Part shown: one piece after another, positions 40,267 through 45,369 of the stretch
How the letters are laid out: every line of letters starts with the position of its first letter
How positions within the stretch are numbered: position 1 is the stretch's first letter
From: Alicyclobacillus kakegawensis NBRC 103104
Lineage (GTDB): Bacteria; Bacillota; Bacilli; Alicyclobacillales; Alicyclobacillaceae
Length of the DNA: 64,000 bases
Direction of reading: 5' to 3'
Assembly: GCF_001552655.1 (NCBI RefSeq)
Contig: NZ_BCRP01000001.1
Coordinates: 124,001-188,000, forward strand
Notes under the pieces: generated by a model
Seen by the model: the letters and a program-made list of their open reading frames with translations, nothing else
The model's database searches: none
What the model was told of the DNA's origin: nothing
Position numbers and translations under genes: made by a program

Positions 40267-41289
40267 CTAGCGCGCCACGCGCCTGCGCGACGGGCGCGGA
40301 GCGCTGCGCAGCCGGTAGGGGCTCTCAATGTACATTCCGGTTCCACGAACCACGCAGCGCATCGGATCTTCGGCCACATGCACCGGGATCTCAAGCTCCC
40401 GGACCATCAGCTTGTCCAATCCGTCCACCAACGCTCCCCCGCCGGTCAGGACGATGCCCTTGTCGAAGATGTCGGCCGCCAACTCCGGCGGCGTGCGCTC
40501 GAGCACCGACTTGGTCGCGCCCACGATCTGCGCGACCGGATCGGCCAGGGCTTCACGCATCTCCTCCGCGTGGATGTTGACTGTCTTCGGCAGGCCGCTG
40601 ACCATGTCGCGACCGCGCACATCCATTTCCCCCGTACGGCCGTCCGGGAATACTGTCGCCAGTTCCTTCTTCAGCTCTTCGGCGGTCCGCTCGCCGATGA
40701 GCAGATTGTGCTCCCGCTTGATATACGCGATAATGGCCTCGTCGAGCTTGTCCCCCGCCACGCGCAACGATGCCGAGGTCACTACGTCGCCGAGCGAAAG
40801 CACCGCGATGTCGGTCGTACCGCCGCCGATGTCGACGACCATGCTTCCGCTTGGCTCGAAGATGTTGAGTCCCGCACCGATAGCCGCCGCCTTCGGTTCC
40901 TCAATCAGGTCGACCCCTTTGGCACCGCAGGCTTCGGCGGCTTCCCGCACCGCCTTTTGCTCCACCGAGGTGATGCCGGCCGGTACGCAGATCATCAGGT
41001 GCGGCCTGGCCATCATGCTCTTGCCAATGGTCTTGCGGATAAAGTGGCGCAACATAATTTCTGTGACCTCGAAGTCCGCGATGACTCCTTCGCGCAACGG
41101 CCGGATGGCGACAATATTCCCCGGCGTCCGTCCCAGCATCTGCCGCGCCTCTTCGCCGACCGCGACGACATGCCCGGTCGTTTGGTCGATGGCCACGACA
41201 GACGGCTCAAACAGGACAACGCCCCGCCCTTTCACATGGATCAGCACGGTGGCCGTGCCCAGGTCCACTCCGATTTCCCTCGAAAACAT
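40267..41289 (-). CDS. mbl: Rod-shape-determining actin homologue Mbl
   Basis: 340 residues of the MreB/Mbl actin family that directs side-wall synthesis. IGVDLGTATVLIHVKGRG (phosphate 1), VVDIGGGTTDIAVLSLG (phosphate 2) and VLTGGGALVDGLDKL (adenosine site) are intact. The place between spoIIID and flhO is the Mbl position in Bacillus. The C-terminal tail ends in a basic stretch (RSAPRPSRRRVAR) not seen in standard Mbl. It probably works with the elongation PBPs. Confidence 0.95.
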   Translation of the reverse strand: MFSREIGVDLGTATVLIHVKGRGVVLFEPSVVAIDQTTGHVVAVGEEARQMLGRTPGNIVAIRPLREGVIADFEVTEIMLRHFIRKTIGKSMMARPHLMICVPAGITSVEQKAVREAAEACGAKGVDLIEEPKAAAIGAGLNIFEPSGSMVVDIGGGTTDIAVLSLGDVVTSASLRVAGDKLDEAIIAYIKREHNLLIGERTAEELKKELATVFPDGRTGEMDVRGRDMVSGLPKTVNIHAEEMREALADPVAQIVGATKSVLERTPPELAADIFDKGIVLTGGGALVDGLDKLMVRELEIPVHVAEDPMRCVVRGTGMYIESPYRLRSAPRPSRRRVAR

Positions 41290-41401: not shown

Positions 41402-41698
41402 CTACAAACTCTGGGAAACTCCTGTCTGCGGCTTGTAATTTTCTGTCGAACTTTCTTTGTTGTACTTCATTTTTGTCGCCTGACCGCCCCGCAGGTGGCG
41501 GATGGACTTGTGGTATTCCAGGATCTCCTTGACGTGGCTGGCCAGTTCGGGGTTGATCTCCGGCAGCCGCTCTGTCAAGTCTTTGTGGACGGTGCTTTTG
41601 GAAACCCCAAACTCGCGGGCAATCGTGCGCACCGTGTTGCGGGTCTCGACGATGTACTCACCAATTTTCAAGGTGCGCTCTTTGATGTAATCGTGCAC
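41402..41698 (-). CDS. spoIIID: Stage III sporulation transcriptional regulator SpoIIID
   Basis: SpoIIID is a mother-cell DNA-binding protein that switches genes between the sigma-E and sigma-K stages. 98 residues, close to the usual 93: YIKERTLKIGEYIVETRNTVRTIAREFGVSKSTVHKDL contains the helix-turn-helix (about 22-42), then LPEINPEL and HLRGGQATKMKY. The start is GTG with GGAGG eight bases upstream. A sigma-E-like promoter lies about 40 bases upstream. Confidence 0.96.
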   Translation of the reverse strand: MHDYIKERTLKIGEYIVETRNTVRTIAREFGVSKSTVHKDLTERLPEINPELASHVKEILEYHKSIRHLRGGQATKMKYNKESSTENYKPQTGVSQSL

Positions 41699-41918: not shown

Positions 41919-42626
41919 TTACCGCTTGGGCAATACCGAAGCGGGGTCGACCGGGGTCTTGCCGTCCTTCTCTACCGCGAAGAACAGGTGGTTGCCCTGG
42001 CTCTCTTCAAACCGGCAGGTGCCGCTCTGACCAATCGCCTGGCCCATGGTCACCTTGTCGCCTTTGTGCACCGAAACACTGCCCAGCGACTCGTACAGCT
42101 CCACATTGCCATCCTGACTGGTGACTTCAACCGTCTTGCCGTTGAGCGGATCGTCCCTGACCGCGGTCACCGTACCGCTGGCTGCCGCATCGACTTCAAA
42201 CGGCTTGCCGTCCTGCGCCTTGATGTCGATGCCGGTGTGAGGATAAAAGCCTCCGTCATACGATACGAGTGCCTTGGCCTGCTCGCGCTGGGATCCATGC
42301 TCGGGGAAGAACCCCATGCTGACTTGAATCTGAGTGCCTTCGGCCACCGGCCAGGTGTAGGCGACATCGGTCGTCTGGGCCTGAGTCGGCAGATTCCCCT
42401 CGTCGGCCACGGTGCCGGAGGTCTGGGACGTGTGCATCTGACTGCGCGCGTACATCAGGCCAATGATCAGCGCAGCCGCCCCCAGGTAGATGGCCGGGTA
42501 AACCCAACGCTTCGAGAACACCTTGCGTGTGGACACGACGGTCGGTTCAGGCGCCATGGGCGCCGTCTTAGCCTGTTCTGTCTCTCGCTTTGTCTGTGAA
42601 GGATTGGTATTCTTGTTATCCTCCAT
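41919..42626 (-). CDS. spoIIQ: Stage II sporulation protein SpoIIQ (M23/LytM fold)
   Basis: Forespore membrane protein that holds the engulfing membranes together with SpoIIIAH. 235 residues: a cytoplasmic tail (1-40), one transmembrane segment (about 43-60), and an extracellular M23 domain (about 95-232). Zinc residues His130 and Asp134 (HTGID) are present, but the second motif, normally HxH, reads HLFF (213-216), so a zinc ligand is lost and the domain is probably not an active endopeptidase. GAGGTGA lies seven bases before the ATG. A sigma-F-type promoter and the spoIID neighbour fit the assignment. Confidence 0.9.
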   Translation of the reverse strand: MEDNKNTNPSQTKRETEQAKTAPMAPEPTVVSTRKVFSKRWVYPAIYLGAAALIIGLMYARSQMHTSQTSGTVADEGNLPTQAQTTDVAYTWPVAEGTQIQVSMGFFPEHGSQREQAKALVSYDGGFYPHTGIDIKAQDGKPFEVDAAASGTVTAVRDDPLNGKTVEVTSQDGNVELYESLGSVSVHKGDKVTMGQAIGQSGTCRFEESQGNHLFFAVEKDGKTPVDPASVLPKR

Positions 42627-42748: not shown

Positions 42749-43924
42749 TTATACCCGGACCGGTTTGCTGCCGGGGTAGAACTTCTCAAGTATCCACTGC
42801 CAATCCCGCCCCTGCTCGGCGAACGCGCTCGCCTGATGCAGGCTGAGACCAAACCCGGGCCCCTCCCCGTGCACCGTGACACGCAGCCCGGACTTGTCCA
42901 CGCGCAAGGTGAAACAGGGTGAAGCCAGACCCAGCGCCGCGGCGAACGACTCCCCCGTCCAGGTCCTGCCGTCCGCCTCCACACGCACGACATACCCTTG
43001 GGCGTCGCGCTCAGCAACCCGCACCCCCGCCAGATTGACAGCCGTCTCGCCCAGCGCCCGGGCCAATCGGGCCCGGCTGACGCTTGTCGTGCTCGTCCGC
43101 TCCGCGGCCCGGTCGGCCGGGCAAGCCACCGCGCGTAGGTAGGGCGCGGTCTTTTTCAGCGATCCGCTCGCGCTCCGGGTCCACCCGTTCGTGATGGTGG
43201 TGATGAAGGCCATAATGGGTTGCCGGCGGTACTCAAGGATGATACCGTCTGTGCCCAAGATAGCCTGTTCCAAGCGCGCCTTGACCCAACCGGCGTCCGC
43301 GCCAAACCGCTCGTCCCAGGCCGACTCCGGCAGCCAGGGCAGGTCGACGGCCGGATTGTCGGTCACATCGGCGTGGTGGGCCCTCGCCAGCGCCGTTTGC
43401 CCCGCAGGCGCCTGCATGGCGTGGGCCGCGTACGTGCGGGCGGCCACCGCCGCCGCTTTCAGCGCGGCCAGCGGCGCGTGCGGATTCACCTGGGCGGCCA
43501 GGACACCCAACAGGTACTCGTTCTCCGGCATGCTCACCACCGTCCGGGTCCCCACCCGGTACACTGTGACCTTCACGGCTGCGTCCCGGCTTTTCGACCA
43601 CGCGGCAACCGGATTCGGGCCGCGGCTGTGCACTTGATGTACAGTAGCCGCGACAGCGCCGGGGAGTACGACCATGGCGAAGAAGGCGGCGAGCAGTAAG
43701 AACCCGGCCTGGATGCGCGCGTCCGCCTCGGACCAGCGAAGAAACAACCGCCGCCCGGACGCGGCGGCGATACCGCCGGCTGCCTTCGCCGCAGCACGGA
43801 CACCTCCAACGGCACGGGTGGACGGCGAGGCCGAGAAGCCCCGGGTTCCCGCGCGGAAGCGGCCCGGACGCCGGGCAAACGGGGCGCGCCGCGATAGAAC
43901 ACGGCGACGTGAAAAAAAGAACAA
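42749..43924 (-). CDS. spoIID: Stage II sporulation protein SpoIID, catalytic Glu replaced
   Basis: SpoIID is the lytic transglycosylase of engulfment. 391 residues from TTG 43924 (GGAGGTGG seven bases upstream). A long basic cytoplasmic tail (1-65) precedes a transmembrane segment (about 72-92). The domain motif reads MPENEYLLGVLAAQVNP; the Glu that follows the VxA(S/A) of the family and is the catalytic acid in B. subtilis is Gln145 here. The later GHGVGMSQ motif reads GPGFGLSLHQ. Position between spoIIQ and murA makes it the orthologue, yet it may be inactive or may work differently. Confidence 0.88.
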   Translation of the reverse strand: MFFFSRRRVLSRRAPFARRPGRFRAGTRGFSASPSTRAVGGVRAAAKAAGGIAAASGRRLFLRWSEADARIQAGFLLLAAFFAMVVLPGAVAATVHQVHSRGPNPVAAWSKSRDAAVKVTVYRVGTRTVVSMPENEYLLGVLAAQVNPHAPLAALKAAAVAARTYAAHAMQAPAGQTALARAHHADVTDNPAVDLPWLPESAWDERFGADAGWVKARLEQAILGTDGIILEYRRQPIMAFITTITNGWTRSASGSLKKTAPYLRAVACPADRAAERTSTTSVSRARLARALGETAVNLAGVRVAERDAQGYVVRVEADGRTWTGESFAAALGLASPCFTLRVDKSGLRVTVHGEGPGFGLSLHQASAFAEQGRDWQWILEKFYPGSKPVRV

Positions 43925-44052
43925 AGCCTGTCCACCTCCCTGCTCGGACGCCAAGTGGCTCCGTACTAGGGATATGCGGACAGGCTCGCAGACAGAACGG
44001 CTCGCGATTCCATACTCAGCGCGAACGCGGATGATGCCTTGTTCCGTGCGCT

Positions 44053-45369
44053 TCAGCCCTCTTTGCGCAGAGGCACAAGGCGGAGCCGGGCTCCCGCCCC
44101 CTCCTCGTCAATCCGGTAGATGTGGGCGCCAAGCGACTGGAACTTGCCGACCAAGTCATCGTAGCCTCGGTCAATGTGGTGCAGGCCGGTGATCTCCGTT
44201 TCCCCTTCGGCCATCAAACCAGCGATGACCAGCGCCGCGCCGGCGCGCAGGTCGGTCGCCGTCACCTGGGCACCGGACAGACGCGGAACCCCTTCGATGA
44301 TGGCGGACCTTCCCTCGACCTGAATCTGAGCGCCCATGCGGCGCAACTCGGCCACATGCAGGAAGCGGTTCTCGAACACCGTCTCGGTCACCATGCTGGT
44401 GCCCAGGCAGAGAGTGAGCGCCGCAACCATCTGCGCCTGCAGATCGGTCGGGTAAGCGGGATAGTAGTGGGTCTTCACATCAATCCCGCGCAAGCGCCCG
44501 CCCTGAACCGGCCAGACTTGGATGCCCGAGACGTCATCTTCCAACTGCACGCCGGCCTCTTCCAGTTTCGCGATGAGCGACATCAGGTGCTGGGAGACGG
44601 CGTTTTCCACATAGACACCCTCGCCCATGACGGCGCCGGCGAGCAAGAACGTGCCCGCTTCAATGCGGTCAGGGATGACGTTATGGGTGGCACCAGTGAG
44701 CGATTGGACGCCTTCGATGCGAATGATATCCGTCCCGGCTCCTCGCACGTGCGCCCCCATCGCGTTCAGGTAGTTGGCCAAATCGACGTTCTCCGGCTCC
44801 TTGGCCGCGTTCTCAATGATGGTGGTGCCCTTGGCCAGACACGCGGCCATCATCAGGTTCTGGGTGGCCCCCACGCTTGGGATGTCCAGGTAAATGCGGG
44901 CGCCCCGCAATCCGCCGGGAGGCGCATGGAAGACAGTGGCCCCGTTTTCCACCACCGCTGTGGCTCCCATCGCTTCGAAACCCTTGATGTGCAGGTCCAC
45001 CGGCCGGGGGCCGATGTTACAACCGCCCGGCATGGCGATGCGGGCATGTCCAAAGCGCGCCAAAAGCGGCCCGGCCACCACAAACGAGGCGCGCATGCGC
45101 CGAACCAGATCAGCAGGGGGTTCACAACTGTCGACGCGGGACGCGTTGATGCGCACGGTATGGCCGCGCCGCTCGACAATCGCGCCGAGCGACTGGATGG
45201 TCTCCATCATGTGTCGAACATCAAGCAAGTCTGGCACATCTTCAATTTGACTGGTTCCCGACTCGGCCAATAAACTCGCGGCCAAAATGGGCAACACGGC
45301 GTTTTTGGCGCCGCTGACCCGGACCCTGCCGCGCAGGCGATGGCCGCCTTCAATCATCATCTTGGACAA
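44053..45369 (-). CDS. murA: UDP-N-acetylglucosamine 1-carboxyvinyltransferase
   Basis: MurA transfers enolpyruvate from PEP to UDP-GlcNAc, the first committed peptidoglycan step. 438 residues: SGAKNA with Lys22 and Asn23, PGGCNIGPRPVDLHI with the fosfomycin-reactive Cys117, and DLRAGAALVIAGL near the end. The start is TTG at 45369 after GGGGGTT; ATG codons three or four positions later are possible. It follows ywmB and precedes spoIID, the Bacillus order, so this is the MurAA type. Confidence 0.95.
   Translation of the reverse strand: MSKMMIEGGHRLRGRVRVSGAKNAVLPILAASLLAESGTSQIEDVPDLLDVRHMMETIQSLGAIVERRGHTVRINASRVDSCEPPADLVRRMRASFVVAGPLLARFGHARIAMPGGCNIGPRPVDLHIKGFEAMGATAVVENGATVFHAPPGGLRGARIYLDIPSVGATQNLMMAACLAKGTTIIENAAKEPENVDLANYLNAMGAHVRGAGTDIIRIEGVQSLTGATHNVIPDRIEAGTFLLAGAVMGEGVYVENAVSQHLMSLIAKLEEAGVQLEDDVSGIQVWPVQGGRLRGIDVKTHYYPAYPTDLQAQMVAALTLCLGTSMVTETVFENRFLHVAELRRMGAQIQVEGRSAIIEGVPRLSGAQVTATDLRAGAALVIAGLMAEGETEITGLHHIDRGYDDLVGKFQSLGAHIYRIDEEGAGARLRLVPLRKEG

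Follow-up and report, generated by a model that had tools for sequence, protein, structure and literature searches.

The spoIID gene in the window (the whole stretch of DNA analysed, 64,000 nucleotides in length) is ordinary in its identity and unusual in its state: the catalytic set of SpoIID is dismantled throughout the Alicyclobacillaceae, in an order without detectable SpoIIP. A rather probable explanation, and the one favored here, is that SpoIID turned into a pseudoenzyme after SpoIIP had been lost and was kept for a structural role in engulfment. In B. subtilis and C. difficile, SpoIIP is the amidase that removes peptides from the septal glycan, with SpoIIM as the membrane anchor. As described for the model species, SpoIIP produces bare glycan, which is then cut by SpoIID (PMC6221140, PMC9600426). 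The catalytic glutamate of SpoIID corresponds to E88 in the B. subtilis and E101 in the C. difficile protein. An E101A variant of the latter is reported to be stable and inactive and to give no spores (PMC6221140), which agrees with an earlier sequence-only reading of the window that regarded this residue as essential for activity. A review describes the glutamate as strictly conserved in all Bacilli (PMC6934232); the Alicyclobacillaceae are an exception to this statement.

The window gene is an orthologous spoIID, and its host is an Alicyclobacillus closely related to A. shizuokensis. Its interval is open in the minus frame, and the plus strand is interrupted by stops. The start codon is preceded by GGGAGGTGG, and an alternative TTG at 43954 would give a protein of 401 residues; the residue numbers used below (F160, H366 etc.) follow this longer form and are lowered by 10 in the 391-residue form. 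The genes are arranged in the order murA-spoIID-spoIIQ-spoIIID-mbl (Table 1), the last of which we take to be mbl from its sequence. Identical arrangements occur in A. shizuokensis, A. herbarius, A. macrosporangiidus, and A. montanus as well as in outgroup Bacilli, e. g. Tumebacillus and Paenibacillus, so that spoIID indeed resides in its conserved place, as had been proposed from the sequence.

Table 1. Features of the spoIID locus in the window
Feature	Position	Strand	Remarks
spoIID	42749..43924	-	391 aa from TTG 43924; N-terminal membrane helix and SpoIID/LytB domain
CAG codon	43490..43492	-	Gln at the catalytic Glu position; residue 145 of 391, 155 of 401
GPGFGLSLHQ	42833..42862	-	in place of GHGxGMSQxG; outgroup-conserved His and Gln gone
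murA	44053..45369	-	upstream of spoIID; synteny
spoIIQ	41919..42626	-	M23/LytM domain; HxH reads HLF
spoIIID	41402..41698	-	neighbour in the spoIID locus
mbl (MreB family)	40267..41289	-	synteny

Like the SpoIIDs of B. subtilis, B. anthracis (4rwr), and C. difficile (5i1t, 5txu), the window protein combines a membrane anchor with the SpoIID/LytB domain in the same fold, and its gene has murA and spoIIQ as neighbours, an arrangement shared with other Bacilli. The profiles PF08486 and SpoIID_LytB recognize it with 50.2 bits (cut-off 23) and 103.7 bits (cut-off 83.3), respectively, and an AlphaFold model of residues 77-401 (pLDDT 92.5) has SpoIIDs as its best PDB matches, with VIA-align Z scores of 31.6 (5i1t) and 25.9 (4rwr). 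It differs from the proteins named above in the exchange of Glu for Gln, in the missing His and Gln of the GHGxGMSQ motif, and in the lack of a detected SpoIIP partner in its genome. Moreover, it reaches only 159.5 bits with the equivalog profile TIGR02870 (spore_II_D), for which the curated cut-off is 234.75, and no match exceeds this cut-off in any of the 59 genomes of the order Alicyclobacillales. The SpoIID/LytB domain is also shared by LytB-type amidase enhancers and long SpoIID/LytB proteins. Four weak SpoIID matches in the class sample, G102, G135, and G216 (frames of 718-753 aa) as well as G056 (519 aa), are probably not spoIID orthologues, since these long frames match only in pieces; G216 has SpoIIP and G056 shows a weak SpoIIP match.

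In the window protein, the motif around the catalytic position reads YLLGVLAAQVNPHAP with Gln145 (391-residue form). In an alignment with the solved SpoIID 4rwr, the motif is free of gaps and the Glu of 4rwr is located opposite this Gln, which thus occupies the site of the catalytic residue, in keeping with the initial assignment. The altered second motif, GPGFGLSLHQ instead of GHGxGMSQ, was likewise read in the protein and turned out to be the deeper clue of the two. A. shizuokensis SpoIID carries the identical Gln, also encoded by CAG, and the exchange was most simply fixed on the branch leading to this species and the window species.

This comparison was extended to the SpoIIDs of all 39 Alicyclobacillaceae genomes with a match (of 41), one of which, a fragment (L250), was excluded from the tree and from the position-by-position comparison, leaving 38 full-length members. 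One outgroup set comprises 68 SpoIIDs of the same class but outside the family, selected among its 154 genomes over the SpoIID cut-off, and a second one 25 further SpoIIDs over the cut-off, of which 3 belong to this class and 22 to other classes within the phylum. The catalytic Glu is found in 68/68 and 25/25 of these, respectively, and chance can be excluded as an explanation because Glu occupies the site in 93/93 outgroup rows, all of them matches over the SpoIID cut-off, a selection that favors canonical sequences. Among the 39 family members, the same position is occupied by Glu (23), Gln (8), Asn (6), or Ala (1) and is not covered by the fragment. In an IQ-TREE phylogeny with 38 family and 13 outgroup rows, computed after omission of the trait columns, the Glu state changed six times.

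More uniform changes are found elsewhere in the protein. Neither the His of GHGxGMSQ nor the Gln of SQ, two residues with a supposed catalytic role, is retained in any of the Alicyclobacillaceae (0/39 each), compared to 93/93 outgroup SpoIIDs that have both. After SQ[YW], where the outgroups have Gly, the family carries Glu (33 of 39) or Gln (6 of 39) within a motif, GMSLHEA, that is itself conserved. In addition, F160, Q168, Q205, H366, Q372, and G374, which are invariant in the 68 class outgroups, are missing from all 38 full-length family members, with Leu replacing Q205 in every case. The family also lacks E260 (65/68 outgroups) and R338 (67/68), whose sites are occupied in 34/38 members by Arg and Ala, respectively. 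In the 25 further outgroups, the Glu, His, and Gln as well as Q168, Q205, and E260 are present throughout (25/25 each), the R338 site reads Arg (19), Gln (5), or Lys (1), and the F160 site Phe (22) or Tyr (3). The residues A167, R173, T174, T235, G257, T259, Y272, L273, G363, G365, G369, S371, and A375 of the fold core are invariant in both groups (68/68 and 38/38). Hence, the idea of a single Glu-to-Gln oddity in an otherwise normal SpoIID has to be abandoned, since the second motif has been rebuilt in 39/39 members and further conserved positions have switched.

A survey of named records gave the altered pattern in nine family loci (eight titled Alicyclobacillus and one Bacillota MAG), most of which coincide with genomes of the 39-row alignment. 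The full residue set was present in 30 non-family loci, and one further SpoIID was a fragment. Half of the 80 named loci (40) have no SpoIID in the flank and were left out. As a separate observation, a Cys within a PYLxxxxCPxD stretch (residue 278; 211 in the first row of the alignment) is invariant in 18/18 aligned family SpoIIDs, where the solved SpoIIDs read SPWD or SPYD.

No SpoIIP was detected by PF07454 in any of the 59 genomes of the order, and TIGR02867, searched at E values up to 1, gave seven matches, all at 0.17 or worse and none above the cut-off. The flanks of the 30 outgroup SpoIIP loci with the highest scores include gpr in 29 and lepA in 22 cases; within the order, lepA is located inside the gpr-locus stretch in 8/9 loci of the family and 2/2 of the sister family. 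These 11 gpr loci were also searched with a profile built from 23 SpoIIPs (E values up to 10, no filters), which recovered 3/3 left-out outgroup loci as a positive control. The idea of a SpoIIP hidden at the usual gpr locus was rejected, as the profile had no match in any of the 11. The spore protease GPR is encoded in 59/59 genomes and SpoIIM in 56/59 at an E value of 0.001, 24 of them above the cut-off, including the window genome (G000:C10:85139-85666, 106.9 bits). The gene set is thus of the spore-former type, and Alicyclobacillus is described as spore-forming (e. g. PMC5023266).

The absence of SpoIIP, which had been reported for Alicyclobacillus, is hereby extended to the order (0/59 genomes). 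In Galperin et al. 2012 (PMC3533761), spoIIP is given as missing in A. acidocaldarius, with a sequencing error considered as a possible cause; a 2021 survey with two Alicyclobacillus genomes (PMC7924749) likewise states that the Alicyclobacillus signature lacks SpoIIP. In the open-licence literature, we found no report of an altered SpoIID active site in the family or of a link to the loss of SpoIIP. In the sister family f2 (G037-G054; e. g. loci L136 and L138), GPR occurs in 18/18 genomes together with neither SpoIIP nor a full SpoIID match, so that engulfment possibly takes place there in the absence of both proteins.

A broader association of the two proteins is found in a phylum sample, in which 342/398 genomes have SpoIIP. 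SpoIID matches with E values around the cut-off level (about 1e-69) occur in 307/342 genomes with and 0/56 genomes without SpoIIP, an association that is based on lists compared by eye and includes non-spore-formers and distant homologues. Thirty-six genomes have a SpoIID match and no SpoIIP, the best E value being 1.3e-67 and none reaching the cut-off by this measure; a few of them might pass by another measure, since the tally of genomes above the SpoIID cut-off given by the tool, 313, is six higher than the count by eye. Among the 36, ten genomes of family f74 (G312, G415, G439, G462, G485, G506, G526, G566, G584, and G601) lack SpoIIP and have SpoIID matches with E values from 1e-44 to 1e-67, which makes them a candidate for an independent case. 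Among the aligned class outgroups, 67/68 genomes have SpoIIP; in the remaining one, G141, whose assembly is fragmented, SpoIID is intact and SpoIIP was not detected.

Despite these alterations, spoIID of the window is under purifying selection. For the pair formed by the window species and A. shizuokensis, both of which carry the Gln, dN/dS amounts to 0.07-0.12 (YN00 and maximum likelihood; the maximum-likelihood value against A. herbarius is saturated), compared to 0.07-0.09 for spoIIQ, 0.03-0.05 for mbl, and 0.02 for murA. At middle distances, SpoIID has evolved faster in the family than in other Bacilli at matched MurA or Mbl divergence: with MurA identities of 65-75 %, SpoIID identity is 0.37 in the family (11 pairs) versus 0.50 in others (127 pairs), and with 75-80 % it is 0.40 (13 pairs) versus 0.55 (19 pairs), all of these pairs being non-independent. 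For the closest pairs (Mbl identity 95-99 %), values of 0.75 (3 pairs) and 0.77 (13 pairs) were obtained, and the faster rate is not clear.

From the missing residues, we strongly infer that SpoIID of the window is inactive. A reversion of Gln to Glu alone is unlikely to bring activity back, because the second motif is rebuilt in all 39 members, additional conserved positions are switched, the Glu state changed repeatedly, and no SpoIIP was found in the order. A plausible course of events would start with the loss of SpoIIP in the Alicyclobacillales. Bare glycan strands would then no longer have been formed and SpoIID would have been left without a substrate. Its catalysis would thus have become purposeless, with a binding role as what was left. 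In the family ancestor, the His and Gln of GHGxGMSQ and the other conserved positions may then have been replaced, after which the Glu would have been free to change, with several shifts to Gln, Asn, and Ala. SpoIID could have been retained for a task that does not require catalysis, most likely to hold together the mother-cell engulfment complex with SpoIIM and the SpoIIQ-SpoIIIAH bridge, and septal wall cutting, if there is any, would fall to another enzyme.

That SpoIID can have non-catalytic roles follows from reports that B. subtilis SpoIID stimulates SpoIIP even when inactive, an effect not seen in C. difficile, and that SpoIIQ and SpoIIIAH are interaction partners of C. difficile SpoIID (PMC6934232). 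A precedent for a hydrolase fold that is retained without its catalytic site is SpoIIQ of Bacilli, a LytM protein with a degenerate zinc site (PMC3533761, PMC6934232); such a pseudoenzyme state is typical of SpoIIQ in Bacilli, unlike SpoIID with its reportedly strict Glu (PMC6934232). In C. difficile, however, a scaffold alone is insufficient, given that the stable E101A variant does not support sporulation. Furthermore, the Glu is kept in 23 of the 38 full-length family members, which is above the expectation for free drift and implies that some family SpoIIDs may be active, and the conservation of GMSLHEA points to a new constraint rather than mere decay. Finally, SpoIIP loss and motif switch have come together a single time, at family level, so that the link between them is based on one event.

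In some species, the retained Glu and the conservation of GMSLHEA would be compatible with an enzyme whose active site has been rebuilt. As a general explanation, we consider it unlikely that SpoIID is still an enzyme, in which GMSLHEA supplies the catalytic groups and another amidase replaces SpoIIP in providing the substrate. The near-uniform occupancy of the position following SLH (33 Glu and 6 Gln of 39) and the 23/38 members with the old Glu would fit such a scenario. A change of the amidase is conceivable as well, since SpoIID is reported to work in vitro after the unrelated amidases CwlH or AmiA (PMC6635528). Similarly, chlamydial SpoIID (Waddlia) acts with amidases other than SpoIIP and partly depends on Asp48 (PMC6635528); this protein differs from the one described here in that it is reported to be active, with Asp48 being important, and serves division instead of sporulation. 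However, the window protein, A. shizuokensis, and G017 have lost both carboxylates (Gln155 together with SLHQ), and H366, Q372, Q168, and Q205 are gone in 38/38 members.

Still less probable is a slow decay, in which spoIID became nearly dispensable after the loss of SpoIIP, its active site drifted, and the gene is being lost lineage by lineage. In A. cellulosilyticus, murA and spoIIQ are separated by a gap of 187 bp that contains no spoIID, and in one MAG (L268) murA directly adjoins spoIIQ. In the sister family, SpoIID matches are weak and short and limited to 5/18 genomes, none of them representing a full SpoIID. The faster evolution at middle distances is also compatible with decay. Opposed to this are the low dN/dS at a stage when Gln had already been fixed, the fold-core residues without exception in 38/38 members, and the SpoIID match in 39/41 genomes of the family, the two without one including the near-complete G012. 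A sequencing error or a private mutation of one strain, finally, is refuted, as A. shizuokensis was assembled separately and carries the identical Gln and codon, and the Glu has been lost elsewhere in the family as well; CAG is indeed one base away from GAG, as the sequence-only reading had remarked, but GAA is the codon in A. herbarius, the closest relative that carries the Glu.

In SpoIIQ of the window, a zinc ligand is lost as the HxH motif reads HLF. The same protein retains HxxxD in all 12 loci L253-L264 (11 titled Alicyclobacillus and one Bacillota MAG), where the second His of HxH is replaced by Phe (4) or Tyr (8); HxH is kept in 49/51 of the other named loci with SpoIIQ, the two without it being MAGs (L268 and L316). 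A restored SpoIIQ endopeptidase was rejected as a substitute on account of the missing His in 12/12 loci, and SpoIIQ can probably not serve as a stand-in hydrolase.

In the window genome, an SLT-domain lytic transglycosylase gene (L128:6549-7433, G000:C2; Pfam SLT 5.6e-32) is located convergent to gpr, near the spoIIP site of other Bacilli. It occurs near gpr in 8/9 family loci and is missing in G008 and the two sister-family loci. Its product is a candidate replacement wall enzyme with a hypothetical role in sporulation. Downstream of gpr, a small membrane protein (L128:7695-8270) is conserved in 9/9 family loci. It has no Pfam match above the cut-off, and its profile matched none of the ORFs in the vicinity of SpoIIP at 30 outgroup loci; by its place and shape (one helix, a linker, and an amphipathic tail), it is perhaps the counterpart of YqxA. 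A second SpoIID-domain protein (L125:6541-7161) comprises 206 residues with a signal-like start, has kept the Glu, and has no GHG motif. It is a possible replacing enzyme.

Taken together, the SpoIIP partner is gone, the cutting residues of SpoIID are lost, and spoIID has been kept, and engulfment may therefore proceed differently in these bacteria. As a tentative proposal, the spore-formers of the family might engulf without any known engulfment wall enzyme at work, with SpoIIP lost, SpoIID reduced to a pseudoenzyme, and the zinc site of SpoIIQ broken. If this were true, wall degradation by the SpoIID-SpoIIM-SpoIIP (DMP) complex would be dispensable for engulfment in nature, and it would have been replaced either by an unrelated hydrolase, for which the SLT protein encoded near gpr is a candidate, or by wall synthesis and the SpoIIQ-SpoIIIAH bridge alone. 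Spore-formers that depart from the rule in both SpoIID and SpoIIP make it testable whether engulfment needs septal wall cutting and what the non-catalytic task of SpoIID may be.
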